Virus record (IMG/VR): IMGVR_UViG_3300036832_000197
Coordinates: 1-44,391 of that record
Strand: one strand, 5' to 3'
Source of the DNA: a virus
Length of the DNA: 44,391 nucleotides
Below the pieces are notes generated by a model. That model ran no database searches and was not told where the DNA came from. It saw nothing but the letters and a program-made list of their open reading frames with translations. How positions within the stretch are numbered: the stretch's first letter is position 1; each line of letters opens with the position of its first letter. This document shows positions 3,154-9,938 of this stretch, one piece after another. A program made the position numbers and the translations under genes.

Positions 3154-3406
3154 GTGTGACGCTCCTAAATAGTTTGAGCTGCTGATTACTTAGTTTCATT
3201 TGTCTAGTTATCCTACCACAGCGAGAACACACCCACAGCAGCACTCGGTGATCCTGACGCTTGCGGTATAATTCCTCCTTGTGGCTACCTGCCCAGACAC
3301 ATAGCACGTGCCGCCACAGCCTCTTGCGCCATGGCTCCCGTTTAATTATGGTAACAAAATCATCATAGTCATTCACAATACAATAGCTCCTTTCTTTACT
3401 AACCAC
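3143..3406 (-). CDS. Hypothetical basic protein with one CxxC, 87 aa
   Basis: Basic protein rich in Arg, Trp and Lys with a single CSRCG motif near residue 60 and another Cys at about residue 36; this is too little for a full four-ligand zinc site on its own. Its start lies 34 bp inside the end of the DnaQ-like gene, a long overlap, so the true start may be further downstream. Position between the exonuclease and polymerase genes suggests a replication context. Function unknown. Confidence 0.5.
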   Translation of the reverse strand: MVSKERSYCIVNDYDDFVTIIKREPWRKRLWRHVLCVWAGSHKEELYRKRQDHRVLLWVCSRCGRITRQMKLSNQQLKLFRSVTRVY

Positions 3407-3915
3407 TTCAAGCAGGTTATGGTATCTGTCACATCCACATCAGTCCTATGCGCTCCCTTGCGCTTCTTGCCAGTTACCATCTCATATAACTCATCCAACT
3501 TCAGCCTCCTCTTCAACAAGTGGCCACTAGCTTCCACAGTGCATACTAGCCTAGAGGCCCAAGGAAACTGTAGAGCCTTACCTATCCTTGCCATTTCAAA
3601 GGCCATCAACCCATGTTCAAACTTACAGTTGTGAGCTACCATAATGAATTCTCCTAGGAACATGCGGCAGAAGGTAGCATAGTGAAACTCGAAAGGCTTA
3701 GCAGCATTGAGGTCCGATTGCCTAATGTGACTTATGCGTAAGACTTCATCATTGATAGTTTCACGTGGGTTGATGAAGAATGTCTCACGCTCTAGCTCCT
3801 TTAGGCTCTTGTTGTCTAGTCGTGCCAGGGTGGCCTCTATTATGCGTGGCTGTTTCTTCTCCGGCAGGTTGTCAGCTCCTATGAGTCCAGTGGTTTCAAA
3901 GTCTAATACTATCAT
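3373..3915 (-). CDS. dnaQ: DnaQ-like 3'-5' exonuclease (proofreading type)
   Basis: A DEDDh-family exonuclease of 180 residues, the size of the catalytic domain of the epsilon subunit. Exo I is DFETTGL with Asp5 and Glu7. Exo III is HRTDVD with His156 and Asp161, spaced as in epsilon. Exo II reads AHNCKFEHG, so the residue aligned with the usual catalytic Asp (Asp103 of E. coli epsilon) is Glu100. This conservative change may keep, weaken or alter metal binding. There is no clamp-binding or polymerase-binding tail that I recognise. It lies 0.5 kb upstream of the family C polymerase in the same operon, so it most likely supplies proofreading; processing of RNA or recombination ends is the alternative. 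Confidence 0.88.
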   Translation of the reverse strand: MIVLDFETTGLIGADNLPEKKQPRIIEATLARLDNKSLKELERETFFINPRETINDEVLRISHIRQSDLNAAKPFEFHYATFCRMFLGEFIMVAHNCKFEHGLMAFEMARIGKALQFPWASRLVCTVEASGHLLKRRLKLDELYEMVTGKKRKGAHRTDVDVTDTITCLKWLVKKGAIVL

Positions 3916-4224: not shown

Positions 4225-4480
4225 CTGCCTCTAGTGAATTGTCCCATAGCTGTTGGAAGGTGGTTGTTTCCCTAGTATAGCTCATCTCCCACTCCTTGTC
4301 GAAGTTGAGATTGAAGGCAGTAAAGATGCGACGGTGGATGTCTCGGTTCAATCTTTCTGTGACCTTGGTTAGGTCCCCACCTAGTAATCGCACCTGTAGT
4401 TGCCGAGGTATTTGGAGAGTAAACACCTCACCAATTCGATCACAACTGACGCCTTGCGCTTTTAATAGCTCCTTAATCAT
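4178..4480 (-). CDS. Hypothetical protein, 100 aa
   Basis: Unrecognised soluble protein. The first 80 residues look like a folded alpha/beta domain (alternating hydrophobic strands around FTLQIPRQLQVRLL, then helices), and the tail is acidic and low complexity (EADDEENNGAEATAATH). It follows the DUF3820 gene with a 4-bp overlap (ATGA around 4480-4477), so it belongs to the same leftward operon. Confidence 0.6.
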   Translation of the reverse strand: MIKELLKAQGVSCDRIGEVFTLQIPRQLQVRLLGGDLTKVTERLNRDIHRRIFTAFNLNFDKEWEMSYTRETTTFQQLWDNSLEADDEENNGAEATAATH

Positions 4481-4698
4481 ATGTCTTCCCTTTCATCTGG
4501 TGGTATAAAGTCTGGGCATTCCTGCAACAGACTGTTCATGTTTTCTTCTATGTATTTCTTCACTGCGAAATGGTTACAACCTACCTCCCACAGCCACAGG
4601 AGATAGTCTGCTGGGACATCCTCCATTGCGCGTGGGCCCTCAGGAGGCTTCGAGTATTTGCCAAAGGGCATTAGGTCCTTATCTGTTAGTGCGTTCAT
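4477..4698 (-). CDS. DUF3820 / ExoX C-terminal-like protein, 73 aa
   Basis: The core MPFGKYSKPPEGPRAMEDVP followed by ADYLLWL is the hallmark of DUF3820, which is related to the C-terminal domain of exodeoxyribonuclease X. The start at 4698 is chosen over the longer frame (4728) because a strong ribosome site, AGGAGG at 4710-4705, lies just upstream and the ATG overlaps the SDR stop as ATGA. In bacteria this domain is often attached to DnaQ-type exonucleases. Here it stands alone, three genes upstream of a DnaQ-like gene, suggesting it may act with that enzyme on DNA. That link is inference. Confidence 0.8.
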   Translation of the reverse strand: MNALTDKDLMPFGKYSKPPEGPRAMEDVPADYLLWLWEVGCNHFAVKKYIEENMNSLLQECPDFIPPDEREDI

Positions 4699-5462
4699 CG
4701 TTGTCCTCCTGCTAATTCTATTTGACAACCTGAGAGATAGGTAGTGTGTGGCTTTAGAAGGTCCATAACCAGTTCCGCTATTTCATCAGTCTGTAGGATG
4801 TGAGACCGAATAGGTGAGTCATTCCAGTATGCTTCTGCCTCCTTCCTTGCCAGGAATCGGTAGCGCATAAGACCTTCAATTGTTTCCTCCGACATAGGTG
4901 TGCCCTCGGTATTAGAAGGATGAATCATGAAGACATCAAAGCCTTTAGGTGTCAGCTCCCATGCTAGACATCTTCCTAGCATAGCTACACCCGCCTTGCT
5001 AGCACAATAGACTGCGGACCCATTAAGCACACACCTATGGGCCATAGAACCTATGATAATGATGCGCTTCCGTTCATTGGCGTAGATGTTAGCCTTCACA
5101 AAGGTCTGAATAGTCCTAGCTGTGCCATATAGGTTTACATCCAATATAGCCTTCATCTTCTCATATGGTAGGTCCTCAAACCAGTCTAGATAGGTCACTC
5201 CATGGCTTAGAATCAGGACATTACGATTTTGAAAACTGGGTAGGTTTTGGTCATCTCTAACATCAAAGTCAGTGCCCCATATTCTGCTGCAGATTTTTGA
5301 AGCAGCTAGCCTTTTAGCTATGGCTTGTCCAATGGAGTTATTCTTTGTGGCTCCTACGATTATAGCACGAATGTCCGAGGGATTCCATTTCTTGTGACCA
5401 TGTAGGTCTAATAGCTGTCGCAGGTAATTGCTGCTGGCATGTGCCTTAATGTTTGGGATCAT
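4695..5462 (-). CDS. Short-chain dehydrogenase/reductase (SDR)
   Basis: NAD(P)-dependent oxidoreductase of the classical SDR size (255 residues). Visible motifs: the nucleotide-binding turn VGATKNNSIG (residues 36-45, a variant of TGxxxGIG), an acidic stretch DFDVRD near 66-71, LSHG at 85-88 in the place of NNAG, and the full catalytic tetrad Asn110 (DVNLYG), Ser139 (IIGSM), Tyr152 and Lys156 (YCASK). The substrate cannot be inferred from sequence. It overlaps the upstream gene by 17 bp and is coupled by ATGA to the DUF3820 gene, so it is an integral part of the replication operon rather than a stray insertion. An SDR here is unusual for a phage of this size. Confidence 0.88.
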   Translation of the reverse strand: MIPNIKAHASSNYLRQLLDLHGHKKWNPSDIRAIIVGATKNNSIGQAIAKRLAASKICSRIWGTDFDVRDDQNLPSFQNRNVLILSHGVTYLDWFEDLPYEKMKAILDVNLYGTARTIQTFVKANIYANERKRIIIIGSMAHRCVLNGSAVYCASKAGVAMLGRCLAWELTPKGFDVFMIHPSNTEGTPMSEETIEGLMRYRFLARKEAEAYWNDSPIRSHILQTDEIAELVMDLLKPHTTYLSGCQIELAGGQR

Positions 5463-5757
5463 GTCTGCCTTTCTTTTGTTGTTGTATGTATGTCTCTATC
5501 ATAAATGTGTAAACGCCATCGTCATGGATGGAGTCTAGGTGGGTGTGCCTGGTCTGGACAAAGCGTGTTAGCTTACCCACCTTCCAGCTCATCCAATGAA
5601 ACAGCACAAAGTCCTCCTCGGTCCTCAGTGTGATCCCATTAGGATACAGGGCCACAAACACCTTGCCTACCATCTCCCAGTTATTGCTATATTGACGATT
5701 CTTCTGCCGGAAGGTCCTGGCTGCTTTAAGTAATGTCTTGTGGGCCTTTAGTTTCAT
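5446..5757 (-). CDS. Small phage protein, possibly nucleotide-modification associated (DUF6378/DUF1599-like)
   Basis: A 103-residue, mostly helical protein with the pattern RQYSNNWEMVGKVF, then PNGITLRTEEDFVLFHW, then KLTRF, then HLDSIHDDGVYTFMIE. From memory this order resembles small phage proteins placed in DUF6378 or the nucleotide-modification-associated DUF1599 group, related to all-alpha nucleotide pyrophosphohydrolases (MazG-like). The acidic/His residues DSIHD could bind metal. I cannot verify the family. It lies between a HAD phosphatase and an SDR gene, overlapping both (32 and 17 bp), which agrees with a role in nucleotide metabolism. Confidence 0.6.
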   Translation of the reverse strand: MKLKAHKTLLKAARTFRQKNRQYSNNWEMVGKVFVALYPNGITLRTEEDFVLFHWMSWKVGKLTRFVQTRHTHLDSIHDDGVYTFMIETYIQQQKKGRHDPKH

Positions 5758-6088
5758 GGTGTAAACACTCTATACAATTAGGATTCATAGCTCTATCATC
5801 CCATAGCATAGCCATTTCTGGGTCTTTCTCACAGGTTATGGGAAGAGGCTTTCCAAATGTATCAATACAAAATGCCTGGATCACTCGTCCACCTATAGCT
5901 GGATCAGAATACATAGGATGCACCCGCGAAGTAAAGATGCGGACCTCAATTCCTTGTTCCAGCCAGTTCCTTATCCGATTGACCATAGCCTCTATTGGTT
6001 TTCCTACCGCAGCTGGGTTTCGGTCCCCACAGTAGGTGACCAGCGTTCCATCGAAGTCCACGCCTATCCATCCCTTATAGGTATTCAC
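5726..6088 (-). CDS. HAD-superfamily phosphatase-like protein
   Basis: A compact 120-residue HAD-fold protein. Motif I is VDFDGTL with nucleophile Asp11 and acid/base Asp13; motif II is IFTSR with Thr53/Ser54; Lys88 is a plausible motif III lysine; motif IV is WDDRA with Asp97 and Asp98. There is no cap domain, so the substrate may be large (a nucleic-acid end or protein) or a small phosphate ester such as a nucleotide. Similar short proteins are common in phages and are related to the phosphatase half of polynucleotide kinases. It overlaps both neighbours, so it is translated as part of the operon. Confidence 0.8.
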   Translation of the reverse strand: MNTYKGWIGVDFDGTLVTYCGDRNPAAVGKPIEAMVNRIRNWLEQGIEVRIFTSRVHPMYSDPAIGGRVIQAFCIDTFGKPLPITCEKDPEMAMLWDDRAMNPNCIECLHHETKGPQDIT

Positions 6089-6290
6089 TAGGCAATCTCC
6101 TCACTGGCAACTGATCTGTGTCTTTACGCCATTGGGCCACCTGGTGTCTTATCTCTATCATGTATAGAAGGGTAAGACCCACGCGCCTTTTAATTTCTTC
6201 ACTGCTGGGTGGTGGCTCCTTAAAGTTAATACCATTGGCACCTCCCATAAGGTGGGCCATGATTAGTTCATCATCTTCATTTATTGCCAT
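6075..6290 (-). CDS. Hypothetical protein, 71 aa
   Basis: An acidic N-terminal part followed by a helical segment (LTLLYMIEIRHQVAQW) that is amphipathic, not long enough for a clear membrane span. It begins 3 bp after the ThyX-like gene and overlaps the HAD gene by 14 bp. I do not recognise it; the tight packing supports that it is real. Confidence 0.55.
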   Translation of the reverse strand: MAINEDDELIMAHLMGGANGINFKEPPPSSEEIKRRVGLTLLYMIEIRHQVAQWRKDTDQLPVRRLPSEYL

Positions 6291-6293
6291 CTG

Positions 6294-7016
6294 TTACTCC
6301 TTTCTCAATAGGTCTATCAATTTACAGCACTTGATAAATTTAGCTTCATCTCCCACGACCCACGAGGAATTTTTAATTTCATTTTCCAACTCCCTAGCTA
6401 TAGCCACTTTATCAGGAATTAGAAAGTCACTGGCCCATGGGTGAACCTTGAGGACTTCTTCCACCATAGCCACTACCACGCTTCGGTATTCATCCTGCAC
6501 CCGCGCAGTCCACCTCTTACGCACCAGGTCCGAGAGGGCACGCAGGTTAAACTGGGCTATGATGTTGGTGTGGATATTGGTGGGAAGGACACCACGGGCG
6601 TCCTGCACAGCTGCTCCCTTAGCTAGCAGGGCATCATAGCCTTCCTGAATCCTCCGCATGGTAGCATCATAGATGGCCCTGAGGACAGGATTAGAAATGA
6701 TGGTGGGTCCTGTCTCATAAGTGAATGCCTCCATCTTGTTGACCCTTTGAGCCTGCTGTGCGTAGCTACCTGTGCGTGTCCTTACTAGCTGATGCGTGAA
6801 GGCTCGTGTGACGTCTAGGATTTCAAAGGTGTAGGTGACAAACTCCCATGAGCTAGGGACCGTCTTGGCAATGTAGGCTAGTTCAATTGCCTTTTCTTCA
6901 TCCGTCATTTTACCGATCTTGGCACGTGTTTCGCTGCCCTGAGTAAGCCTTGTGGCCTTAGTGTAAATGAGCTTCTCCTCAGCATCTCGTGTGAAGTCAA
7001 TTATTGTTACTTTCAT
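6294..7016 (-). CDS. thyX: ThyX-like flavin-dependent thymidylate synthase, divergent signature
   Basis: A 240-residue ThyX homologue, the usual length. The region FTHQLVRTRTGSYAQQAQR (about 73-91) aligns with the ThyX signature RHRxxSxNExSxR, and NLRALSDLVRKRWTARVQDE aligns with the C-terminal dUMP-binding region. Differences from the signature are His to Thr at 80, Asn to Ala at 86, Glu to Gln at 87 and the RHRx7S serine to Ala at 89. The two outer arginines (79, 81) and Arg91 are kept. ThyX makes dTMP from dUMP using folate, FAD and NADPH. The serine is known to be dispensable in some ThyX enzymes, so activity is possible, but a changed substrate or reaction is a fair alternative. It is coupled by ATGA to the upstream gene. 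Confidence 0.85.
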   Translation of the reverse strand: MKVTIIDFTRDAEEKLIYTKATRLTQGSETRAKIGKMTDEEKAIELAYIAKTVPSSWEFVTYTFEILDVTRAFTHQLVRTRTGSYAQQAQRVNKMEAFTYETGPTIISNPVLRAIYDATMRRIQEGYDALLAKGAAVQDARGVLPTNIHTNIIAQFNLRALSDLVRKRWTARVQDEYRSVVVAMVEEVLKVHPWASDFLIPDKVAIARELENEIKNSSWVVGDEAKFIKCCKLIDLLRKE

Positions 7017-7336
7017 TTGATGTATGGTTTTAATTGATTGAGATCAATTCTTCTGTTGATGTTGTGGTATCCATCCTTCTTCTTCTTCATTGTGCCATGG
7101 TATGAAAAACTTAAGGCATTATTTGGCTTGCCTGGACGTGGGATGAGACTCCAGCAACCACCATTACTCCCTTTAATTGTTATTGGTATTGGGTCTCCTT
7201 TTTCATTGAGAGGAAATTCAATACCATGTATTGTTTTAGTCCTTGGTTGTTTAGCTACTATTTTGCCCTGTAGCTCCAGGCCATGTTCAACTAACAATGC
7301 ATTTATTGCTTTCTCTAGCTGTTTATCTTTCATCAT
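7013..7336 (-). CDS. Hypothetical protein, 107 aa
   Basis: Unrecognised soluble protein with a basic N-terminal helix and a beta-rich centre (IHGIEFPLNEKGDPIPITIK). It lies between the FAD oxidoreductase gene, whose ATG region it overlaps by 14 bp, and the ThyX-like gene, to which it is joined by ATGA. This places it inside a flavoprotein cluster, but no motif shows a role. Confidence 0.6.
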   Translation of the reverse strand: MMKDKQLEKAINALLVEHGLELQGKIVAKQPRTKTIHGIEFPLNEKGDPIPITIKGSNGGCWSLIPRPGKPNNALSFSYHGTMKKKKDGYHNINRRIDLNQLKPYIK

Positions 7337-8246
7337 ATGTATGTCCTTTCTGTATCATTGCTTCTATCTTCTTAACATCCCCCACTACGTCATCCAGCAG
7401 GATATTCCTCCACGTAGCAAACCTCCCTAGGCTATACACACCATGCTTCTCCGTCATCCACAGCATGAACCTCTTGCGGACCGATTCGTCAATTGGTAGG
7501 ATTTTACCGATGTCTATTTTGCTAAGTGTAGGTTCCTCTTTTACCACAACTCTTTCTAATCCAAAGCACATCAGTGCTGAGTGTATCCATTGCCCACTAT
7601 GTAGAACTCCATGATGGTTAGTTGGATCAAACATGAACTCTAGAGTCACCTCCTGGTTATGTAGCGTGGCACGATACCACTGGGTAGTATGGCAACGGTA
7701 GAGAGTCTGGCATGCTCGGATGGTGGGATGGGTGAGGGTAGCCTTTATTGTCCACACAGGTAGGAATGTAAATTTAGGCCTGTCCTTCCACTCTACCATC
7801 TCCATCATAAAGGGCATAGGGATGGTGCTAATGATTACTCCAAATGAGGTTAGGTCTAACTCAAATGACTGATTAAACTCAATGTTAAGGTTCCTGGCCA
7901 TTTGTGTAACAAAGTCTATAGGAGCACACCAGCGTTCTGCGGGCTGTAAGTTTAGGATGGACCGTGTAAAGATGTTCCCTCCCGTTACCATAGCTGAATA
8001 CCGATTAAGGTCCTCCAGTGTAGCTTCAGTAACCACCCTTCCATCCTTATACAGGCCTTTGAGCACCTGCTCCCTGGCGAAGGGTATGCCTGTGGCATCG
8101 CTTGCGGCTGTAGTGCGGAATCGGAGGACTGCGGTATGATTCCTTGGTAATGTGGGAGACTTCTCTAGCACTGACACATCATGGCGTCTGAGCATATTGG
8201 CGGCTAGCAAGCCAGCCATCCCAGCTCCAGCAACAATAATTTTCAT
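7323..8246 (-). CDS. FAD-dependent oxidoreductase (Rossmann flavoprotein)
   Basis: A 307-residue flavoprotein. The N terminus KIIVAGAGMAGLLAANML is a clean dinucleotide-binding GxGxxG fold, followed by an acidic residue at the end of strand 2 (SVLEKS). The centre has a second strand motif (GVIISTIPMP), typical of NAD(P)-binding or amine-oxidase/UDP-galactopyranose-mutase-like flavoproteins, and the end has SLGRFATWRNILLDDVVGDV, resembling the FAD-contacting G-R motif near the C terminus of that group. It is shorter than UDP-galactopyranose mutase (about 370). Substrate unknown. Two genes downstream is the flavin-dependent ThyX homologue, so a joint role is tempting but unproven. Confidence 0.82.
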   Translation of the reverse strand: MKIIVAGAGMAGLLAANMLRRHDVSVLEKSPTLPRNHTAVLRFRTTAASDATGIPFAREQVLKGLYKDGRVVTEATLEDLNRYSAMVTGGNIFTRSILNLQPAERWCAPIDFVTQMARNLNIEFNQSFELDLTSFGVIISTIPMPFMMEMVEWKDRPKFTFLPVWTIKATLTHPTIRACQTLYRCHTTQWYRATLHNQEVTLEFMFDPTNHHGVLHSGQWIHSALMCFGLERVVVKEEPTLSKIDIGKILPIDESVRKRFMLWMTEKHGVYSLGRFATWRNILLDDVVGDVKKIEAMIQKGHTYDER

Positions 8247-8382: not shown

Positions 8383-9285
8383 TTACATTGGTGCATCTTC
8401 AGATTCACGGCTAGGTCCCAAGTCCTCACTTGGTGGAGTAGCAGCTGATACACGCCCAGCTTCTACTGAGTGATTGAATGCCTTAGCGTCTAGGTAAATC
8501 TGCTTGCCGTTAGGTATGCTAACAAGTGGGACATCACTCATGATCTTCCAGCCAAACCATGAGCCCTGATCATTACGCTCAGGTGTGGTAGTGAGGTGGT
8601 AGATTTGATACCACATAGCTGGGTTGAGCTGCTCGCCATTGAAGTCTATCTTCAGATTGTTCATAAGCGTGTTCCACTGCCGATACTTCTTGAACTGGGT
8701 CCCTCCCATGTTAAGGACAAATGGCTGGTAGTCGCCACGCTCCTTATCTAGGTTGAAGATGAAGTATTCGCCACTCTTGCGTATCTCATTCCCAGCTGGT
8801 GTAGTAATCTCACCCTTGGGACCGAAGATGCACTTGGCCTTAAACTCCTGCCAGGCCCGTTCTGAGTCAGGATTGTTACGCATAGGTGTGCGGTCTGCTA
8901 CAAAGCCACCACCCTTAGTCCTAGGGACCCACTCTACATAGGAGATTCTCCCAGCCACAGCTACTACATGGATGCCTTCATCACCACTGTATAGGACCTG
9001 TCCTACCACATCGCATATATCGCCAGCCTCGGCACCCTCAATGTATTTCGCATCACGCTTCTGGACCTGTGGTGATAGGTCCTGTAGGACCTGTATGCGT
9101 GGGATGGCGAAGTCTGCTGAGCCCATAGCTTCCATGCCCTTGTGGGCATCGGCACGGAAGTCTATGACCTGTGTGCTAACGGTCTTGTCTGGTAGCTTAG
9201 TGAGTGCTCGTGACTTTGCTGCTGGCGCAGGAGCTGTTTGCCTTTTTGGGTGTGTTACTGTCTGTTTCTGCTTTTTCTTTATCAT
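8383..9285 (-). CDS. Conserved-looking phage protein, possible DNA-binding/replication accessory, 300 aa
   Basis: The protein has a basic, Pro/Ala/Lys-rich N-terminal tail (1-35), then a long folded part with FAIPRIQVLQDLSPQV and IEGAEAGDI, then WVPRTKGGGFVADRT and a tail of low complexity with acidic residues (SEDLGPSRESEDAPM). The phrase around the first motif recurs, from memory, in proteins of many podo- and siphoviruses located beside replication genes. The acidic C-terminal tail and basic N terminus would suit a single-stranded-DNA-binding protein, but I cannot show an OB fold. Its ATG overlaps the previous stop as ATGA. Confidence 0.65.
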   Translation of the reverse strand: MIKKKQKQTVTHPKRQTAPAPAAKSRALTKLPDKTVSTQVIDFRADAHKGMEAMGSADFAIPRIQVLQDLSPQVQKRDAKYIEGAEAGDICDVVGQVLYSGDEGIHVVAVAGRISYVEWVPRTKGGGFVADRTPMRNNPDSERAWQEFKAKCIFGPKGEITTPAGNEIRKSGEYFIFNLDKERGDYQPFVLNMGGTQFKKYRQWNTLMNNLKIDFNGEQLNPAMWYQIYHLTTTPERNDQGSWFGWKIMSDVPLVSIPNGKQIYLDAKAFNHSVEAGRVSAATPPSEDLGPSRESEDAPM

Positions 9286-9938
9286 AATTTGGTCTCTGTA
9301 TTGGGTGTTGTGATCTCGGCAATCTGTCCACTGAATACCTTAAACAATTCCATGTCCACGCTCTTACCTGCCTCAATGCGCTCACGGACCCAGGCATTCA
9401 GGCTCTGTGGGTGGACGCCTTTAGTAATGTCGGCCTGTATGCCTAGTTTCCTAAGAGCAGCTATGGCCTTATTAGCTATGGGCTCAGAGTCCTTGCCGAA
9501 GTCTGCCTTGAGGAGAGTCTTAATGAGAGCTGCTGCTCCCACCTTGCGCAAATAGGAGAAGCACCTGTTAAGCCTCTCACGCATCTCGTGCCTAGCCTCG
9601 CCATCACGGCACTTGAGTATAGCTCCTTCACTCGGTATAGAGGCATAGATGAGTGGCCGAACATGGACCTTGCTACCATCCTTTAGCTTTACCTCGGAGA
9701 GGTTATATTGGTCCATGAGTTCTGGTATAGCCTGCATCTTTAACTCATCAACCTCACCCGCTAGGTCTAGGGCACGTTGCTGGGCCTCGTGTAGCAGGTG
9801 TAGCTTCGATTGAAGCTGAATAACTAGGGCACCAATGCGCTCTAGGTCTAGGAGCTGGCTGCTGCTCGTTTTATCTTCCTTGAAGTTGATCTCATTGTTT
9901 GTCGGTTTCGCTTTCTGTGCTGTCTTTTTTTTCGGCAT
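9282..9938 (-). CDS. Hypothetical coiled-coil phage protein, 218 aa
   Basis: A lysine-rich tail (1-20), a heptad-like helical segment at about 28-68 (LLDLERIGALVIQLQSKLHLL), then a small beta domain around SEVKLKDGSKVHVRP and a helical C-terminal half with YLRKVGAAALIK. This arrangement matches a family of phage proteins of unknown function that lie next to replication or recombination genes (from memory, DUF7173-like). It is joined by ATGA to the downstream 300-residue gene, so the two proteins are probably made in similar amounts and may act together. Confidence 0.65.
   Translation of the reverse strand: MPKKKTAQKAKPTNNEINFKEDKTSSSQLLDLERIGALVIQLQSKLHLLHEAQQRALDLAGEVDELKMQAIPELMDQYNLSEVKLKDGSKVHVRPLIYASIPSEGAILKCRDGEARHEMRERLNRCFSYLRKVGAAALIKTLLKADFGKDSEPIANKAIAALRKLGIQADITKGVHPQSLNAWVRERIEAGKSVDMELFKVFSGQIAEITTPNTETKL

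Follow-up and report, generated by a model that had tools for sequence, protein, structure and literature searches.

The ThyA-type dUMP/dCMP hydroxymethylase pathways of the phages T4, SPO1, ViI and M6 are encoded by a thymidylate-synthase homologue, nucleotide hydrolases and transferases beside replication genes (PMC8670742). Modification of 5-hydroxymethylcytosine by a carbamoyltransferase encoded beside a ThyA-type thymidylate-synthase homologue has been demonstrated for phages (MetaGPA, PMC8670742). Wifcevirus phages of the Escherichia coli BASEL collection are resistant to nearly all restriction systems tested, from a cause that is not known (PMC11990801). DNA hypermodification has been proposed in a 2025 paper as a means for Pbunavirus to evade defences, and Pbunavirus Banzai is described there as encoding an END-nuclease inhibitor, ZadI-1 (PMC12390725); according to the title of a preprint cited there, END nucleases target hypermodified phage genomes. 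Here we analysed a 44,391-base virus contig from IMG/VR (IMGVR_UViG_3300036832_000197; the whole stretch is called the window), in which a flavin adenine dinucleotide (FAD) protein, an altered flavin-dependent thymidylate synthase (ThyX), a small HAD hydrolase, a DUF6378-like protein and a short-chain dehydrogenase/reductase (SDR) are encoded together. In the window, as in phage base-hypermodification pathways, a thymidylate-synthase homologue is grouped with replication genes. Since this homologue, hydrolases, exchangeable transferases and a replicative polymerase together reproduce the arrangement of the known loci, we read the module as a base-modification locus that probably builds a modified DNA base.

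The FAD and ThyX genes are tightly linked. IMG/VR contigs were retrieved by the FAD family alone, and 80 were kept. The ThyX gene lies on the strand of the FAD gene in 79 of the 80, with a median gap of 5 bp and a gap of at most 50 bp in 53, and the lone exception ends 22 bases past the FAD gene (L067). Because 79 independently retrieved contigs keep the pair, the pairing is not due to chance.

ThyX is altered as a whole family, with its nucleotide-binding arginines intact. The window protein scores 124 bits against PF02511 (cut-off 24.8) and 95.1 bits against TIGR02170, the NCBI equivalog for FAD-dependent thymidylate synthase (cut-off 87.9). At the signature (RTRTGSYAQQAQRV), RHRxxSxNxxSxRY is replaced by R-T-R-T-G-S-Y-A-Q-Q-A-Q-R-V and is no longer matched, so the alteration noticed in the first-pass annotation is real. 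Residue statistics were obtained for 94 module ThyX sequences in Thermotoga maritima numbering, based on a reference stretch that agrees with the structure-chain alignment except at Y91 (F in the chain). The nucleotide-binding residues Q75, R147, R165 and R174 are kept in all 94 sequences and R90 in 92; R78 and R80 are also kept throughout. At position 79, 71 sequences have T, 13 have N, S or Q, and 10 have H; position 88 is T, S or A; and position 91 is non-aromatic in 91 and aromatic in three. All ten sequences with H79 lack an aromatic residue at position 91, and most of the nine that come from viral contigs have an extra signature residue (RHRxGTxFAQQ). H53 was dropped as a diagnostic residue; it varies in canonical ThyX too.

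A reciprocal test was performed with 15 phage ThyX genes picked without prior knowledge of FAD status. A FAD homologue is present elsewhere in the genome in all four phages whose ThyX has S or Q at position 79 (Wentworth, Leopard, DumpTruck and Hawkeye), and none was found in the 11 phages with H79 (Emaanora, Fameo, SD15, DE15, P60, CP21, Alone3, 268TH007, ATSV, vir335 and P1201). With relatedness ignored, this split gives a Fisher p of about 7e-4, and two of the four, DumpTruck and Hawkeye, closely resemble the Troll4/Djokovic type, which was already known to have the FAD–ThyX pair. In actinophages the two genes are mostly 6-9 kb apart and still co-occur, so their co-occurrence is not mere adjacency. 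Relatives with the SDR and FAD genes apart from ThyX had been named beforehand as evidence against a joint pathway; separation was thus encountered in part, as distance between partners that remain in the same genome. The reference ThyX set consisted of phage records, since the ThyX scan of prokaryotic genomes gave one contig, too few for a bacterial set. The ThyX of the archaeal virus vir335 (L102:1535-3019) is interrupted within the active-site signature by a long insert that is apparently an intein, and the P1201 ThyX is likewise annotated with an intein.

The predicted structure of the FAD protein (AF2 pLDDT 92.7, pTM 0.88) places it in the amine-oxidase/UDP-galactopyranose mutase flavin superfamily, with no closer placement. 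In a Foldseek search of the PDB, the top match was UDP-galactopyranose mutase 3hdq (E 8.4e-12, TM 0.60, about 12-13% identity), and renalase and nicotine oxidase came next after the mutases. A profile search of the PDB matched only the FAD-binding start of amine oxidases. A UDP-sugar mutase function was rejected, because it over-reads a fold match; the likeness is one of fold, and membership of the sequence family was not found. GxGxxG, H37 and LRF at 41-43 are invariant in the family, and GRFATWRxxLLDD is near-invariant. Identity among the FAD proteins of the 80 contigs goes down to about 33%, and an hhalign comparison (P 7.6e-7) shows the actinophage proteins to be collinear with the window family. 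The FAD gene of Vibrio phage PVA7 (L003:8113-9004) is annotated as two open reading frames (ORFs), which suggests a frameshift or sequencing error, and its HAD gene, next but one after the FAD gene, as phosphoheptose isomerase; in the Rhizobium phages Y65 and TM30 (NC_070967.1, NC_070966.1) the FAD protein is labelled polysaccharide deacetylase, apparently a misannotation.

By tblastn, the FAD protein and the DUF6378-like protein were each identified in 358 phage records, with a nearly equal organism make-up (by name 291 Pseudomonas and 27 Escherichia, also Serratia, Rhizobium, Xanthomonas, Pantoea and others). ThyX matches the same phage groups at full length, in 367 records at a coverage of at least 80%. 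Among the 80 FAD contigs, several of which are short, 61 have the HAD gene, 64 the DUF6378-like gene and 73 either one, and the exonuclease family and DnaE are found in 71 and 61, respectively. The complete order of FAD, ThyX, HAD-DUF6378 fusion, SDR, VOC (glyoxalase-like), exonuclease and DnaE genes occurs in Escherichia WFC, Luteibacter Pluto, Xanthomonas FoX7, Serratia MyoSmar and Aeromonas Gekk3-15. No FAD relative was found in the candidate stretches of 84,980 prokaryotic genomes by a pattern-based scan. One genome contig, reached via ThyX (L096), has FAD, ThyX, HAD, DUF6378-like and exonuclease genes in module order and looks phage-like. Association thus supports a module that is conserved, phage-restricted and tied to the replicative polymerase. 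The earlier remark that no published system was known with exactly this make-up had to be corrected: the core set of FAD, ThyX, HAD and DUF6378 is present in hundreds of sequenced phages, including Pbunavirus and Wifcevirus.

In the slot that separates the exonuclease from the FAD gene, a HAD or MazG-type gene supplies a candidate for a nucleotide hydrolase. Troll4 gp62, which is related to the window HAD, is an NT5C-type deoxyribonucleotidase, and the HAD-DUF6378 fusions of WFC and WTB match a PNKP-type HAD; such fusions are found in many relatives. A MazG-type pyrophosphohydrolase (phrog_5658) is encoded in ten contigs, nine of which lack the HAD gene. The small protein that follows HAD had been likened to nucleotide-modification-associated families. 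It does lie near DUF6378 (PF19905), whose profile gives matches for 19 of the 32 members of the family, at best with E 7.6e-6, while the window protein stays below threshold, but this is not a family with a known function. K62, R65, D75, D79 and Y83 are invariant in 32 relatives, and the predicted model is a four-helix fold (pLDDT 93.4). Homology with the actinophage small proteins gp64, gp61 and gp54 is not claimed, as only look-alike motifs were found (hhalign probability 3.8%).

The slot varies among relatives. In the window it holds the SDR, whose catalytic Asn-Ser-Tyr-Lys tetrad was said to be intact and is so by residue check: N in DVNLYGT, S in IIIGSM, and Y and K in YCASK, together with the Rossmann glycine motif. 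The SDR is encoded in only 19 of the 80 contigs and was not found in the module region of Pbunavirus PB1, Burkholderia WTB, Cronobacter Ss1, Vibrio RY-3 or Rhizobium TM61. It was therefore rejected as a core part, contrary to its earlier place in the pathway, and since most relatives lack it the product cannot generally depend on it; the neighbourhood search proposed for SDR, ThyX and FAD oxidoreductase bears out the last two and not the first. The VOC gene is found in 11 contigs, only where the SDR is present.

Other relatives carry transferases in this slot. A NodU-type carbamoyltransferase (E 1.6e-55) is encoded in L020-L022 and L066; its gene lies between FAD and ThyX in L020 (10945-12606) and L022 (11226-13142), and after HAD and a methyltransferase in L066 (12742-14511). 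S-adenosylmethionine (SAM) methyltransferase matches were identified in eight contigs and also in Troll4 and Djokovic; in the latter, a Gordonia phage, a gene like that of a pyrimidine-dimer DNA glycosylase (L013:5669-6256, PF03013, E 1.7e-17) lies between the methyltransferase and DnaE. A glycosyltransferase (GT)-like protein with a DD[DN] motif has matches in eight contigs. Members of this family, of about 260-320 aa and GT-A-like by eye, are encoded in or beside the module (L038:13380-14249, L039:3882-4754, L071:8034-9640 and L092:15076-15861), and those scanned have no match in Pfam, PHROG or NCBIfam. Radical-SAM (SPASM) proteins occupy the slot in L030 and L092, and in Vibrio phage vB_ValP_VA-RY-3 a sulfotransferase (L014:11208-11963, PF13469, E 5.8e-7) takes the position of the SDR of other phages. 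Among the nine viral contigs whose ThyX retains H79, some of them near-duplicates, a radical-SAM gene was found in one, and either a carbamoyltransferase or a GT-like gene in six others. The window module has none of the transferase-type tailoring genes, the carbamoyltransferase included, and has the SDR instead.

The features of the locus are collected in Table 1. The five genes named in the first-pass annotation are all in place on the minus strand, most neighbours overlapping by 4-34 bp, and the set does lie inside a replication operon, with the DnaQ-type exonuclease and DnaE directly downstream and a Pam3 gp34-like gene upstream. Two small ORFs of the run had been absent from the earlier listing. 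Family searches with the first, of 107 aa, gave no match, and it is not common to relatives. The gene of the DUF3820-type small protein overlaps the SDR gene and is not a conserved part of the slot. Immediately upstream, at 8383-9938, the module is flanked by homologues of cyanophage Pam3 gp33 and gp34; most of the 80 contigs have relatives of both in the vicinity of the module, with the gp34-like gene in 63. The window, with genes for a GpA-type terminase, a lambda-type portal and an HK97-type capsid protease, is from a tailed phage; a search of 50,697 phage records gave no near DNA match to its first 25 kb.

Table 1 Features of the module and its flanks in the window.
Feature	Position	Strand	Match or remark
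Pam3 gp34-like protein, upstream of module	8383..9285	-	PF23977 E 2.6e-53
FAD protein, 307 aa	7323..8246	-	phrog_4828 E 1.5e-51 (phrog function not assigned)
107-aa ORF between FAD and ThyX genes, overlaps both	7013..7336	-	ORF list
ThyX-family protein, 240 aa, altered RHR signature (RTRTGSYAQQAQRV)	6294..7016	-	PF02511 E 8e-36
71-aa ORF	6075..6290	-	ORF list; no match in family searches
Small HAD hydrolase, 120 aa	5726..6088	-	phrog_1238 E 3e-10; DFDGT, TSR, DDR motifs present
DUF6378-like four-helix protein (predicted), 103 aa	5446..5757	-	phrog_4889 C-terminus E 7e-21
SDR, 255 aa, intact N-S-Y-K	4695..5462	-	PF13561 E 1.9e-22, 80 bits
Small protein, weak DUF3820-type (QSregVF_b) match	4477..4728	-	21.8 bits, cut-off 22
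DnaQ-type 3'-5' exonuclease	3373..3915	-	downstream neighbour of module in most relatives
DNA polymerase III alpha (DnaE), truncated by contig end	3..2897	-	downstream of module in most relatives

We infer the chemistry, the base and the protection as follows. The operon would make a modified pyrimidine deoxynucleotide, which would be built in by the phage's own DnaE-type polymerase. The altered ThyX would most likely act on dUMP, or with less likelihood on dCMP, by adding a one-carbon unit at C5 without finishing as plain dTMP, and a 5-hydroxymethyl or otherwise oxygenated carbon is the leading guess for its product. This first step, in which transfer to C5 of dUMP would end with an oxygenated carbon, is drawn from ThyX chemistry and from the usual action of transferases on a hydroxyl, and it is a tentative proposal with clearly less than an even chance of being right. 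Oxidation, reduction or transfer of the C5 substituent is the probable task of the FAD protein, the conserved partner of ThyX. Removal of the unmodified nucleotide probably falls to the HAD hydrolase or, in some relatives, to the MazG-type pyrophosphohydrolase, and the DUF6378-like protein may assist the pathway. In the window phage the SDR would tailor the C5 substituent, as other transferases would in relatives, and the modified base would shield the phage DNA from nucleases. In a wider form, this amounts to a ThyX-fold, flavin-dependent base route independent of ThyA-type hydroxymethylases, in phages of Gram-negative bacteria and Actinobacteria: a two-enzyme unit of altered ThyX and dedicated second flavoprotein would make a functionalised C5 pyrimidine, and lineage-specific SDR/VOC, carbamoyl-, methyl-, sulfo-, glycosyl- and radical-SAM enzymes would decorate it. 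We hold this general route to be possible, just short of an even prospect.

The base-modification role is supported by association: by the loss of ThyX signature residues that accompanies the flavin partner, by the nucleotide-hydrolase genes and by optional transferases of kinds known to decorate modified bases. On this evidence, with the conserved module, the pyrimidine modification pathway first suggested for the locus is supported in part, with the SDR outside its core. Several observations weigh against it. Nine viral contigs (L020-L023, L030, L038-L040 and L046) and Aeromonas Gekk3-15 retain H79, all with the FAD gene, so a module can exist without loss of this histidine. Only a minority of contigs have tailoring genes, and some of these contigs are near-identical. 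The Foldseek search of the PDB with the DUF6378-like model gave no match and so speaks neither for nor against a MazG-like fold. Wifcevirus is sensitive to EcoP1_I, and any protection is therefore incomplete. Furthermore, plain dTMP synthesis remains compatible with the sequence, because the window ThyX exceeds the TIGR02170 cut-off. In that case the module would serve ordinary thymidylate supply, with ThyX making dTMP, the FAD protein as a dedicated reductant or flavin donor, and HAD and SDR as general metabolic helpers. The intact dUMP-binding arginines and the frequency of ThyX in phages (2105 records with any ThyX) would fit such a role, but the phages with unaltered ThyX lack the FAD protein (0/11), active-site residues are changed across the whole module ThyX family, and tailoring transferases in the slot are senseless for dTMP. 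We consider this explanation unlikely, though not negligible.

Known counter-defence enzymes act on free nucleotides. The module could likewise modify a non-DNA nucleotide (of the host pool, tRNA or signalling), for instance as a poison of host replication or of a nucleotide-sensing defence, and its HAD or MazG-type hydrolases would suit this purpose. In most contigs the module lies tightly beside the exonuclease and polymerase of replication, which points instead to DNA, as does the resistance of Wifcevirus to DNA-cleaving restriction–modification systems (PMC11990801), and a non-DNA target is quite improbable. The genes might also be independent auxiliary genes gathered in a permissive early region without a joint function, as the absence of the SDR from most relatives and the small unrelated ORFs interspersed in the run would allow. 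The FAD–ThyX linkage already disfavours this, the HAD and DUF6378-like domains are fused in many phages, and the FAD protein accompanies altered ThyX in actinophages even at a distance, which leaves the proposal very improbable. A module that builds a modified DNA base is thus the reading that we prefer.

If this is true, phages recruited a second, unrelated thymidylate-synthase fold for unusual DNA, with a new flavoprotein partner, and the FAD protein with an altered ThyX would be a gene signature predicting modified genomes in hundreds of phages. The module is a candidate cause of the restriction resistance of Wifcevirus, and it is common to Pbunavirus, whose members are widely used therapeutic phages. 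The component families are already known; a base-modification pathway entered by a ThyX fold with a dedicated flavoprotein was not found in the searchable literature, and the preprint on hypermodified genomes cited for Pbunavirus may describe one.

The closest relatives of the locus are found in Wifcevirus, Pbunavirus, Carpasinavirus and Myosmarvirus (WFC, PB1, FoX7 and MyoSmar, respectively), which have homologous FAD, ThyX and HAD-DUF6378 genes in the same order, followed by the DnaQ exonuclease and DnaE. WFC, FoX7 and MyoSmar share the SDR with the window, whereas PB1 lacks it. These phages differ from the window in the fusion of the HAD and DUF6378-like domains and in the VOC gene after the SDR, and the window phage is a separate 44-kb virus. 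At the protein level, the window ThyX has the fold and nucleotide-binding residues of T. maritima ThyX (TM0449), but the module family has a changed RHR histidine, motif serine and motif tyrosine and a conserved FAD-protein partner. The FAD protein shares its predicted fold with the UDP-galactopyranose mutase and renalase flavoproteins and has other conserved residues (H37, LRFR and GRFATWRxxLLDD), with no UDP-sugar role implied. The 5-hydroxymethylcytosine carbamoyltransferase loci resemble L020-L022 in that a NodU-type carbamoyltransferase adjoins a thymidylate-synthase homologue (PMC8670742). The synthase of the MetaGPA loci is PF00303 (ThyA) and the base is cytosine, whereas the relatives of the module have PF02511 and a predicted base, and the window has no carbamoyltransferase. 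Like the hydroxymethylase pathways of T4, SPO1, ViI and M6, the window module is expected to act before or around polymerisation; unlike them, it would start from an enzyme of the flavin-dependent ThyX fold, which is unrelated to theirs, together with a second flavoprotein.

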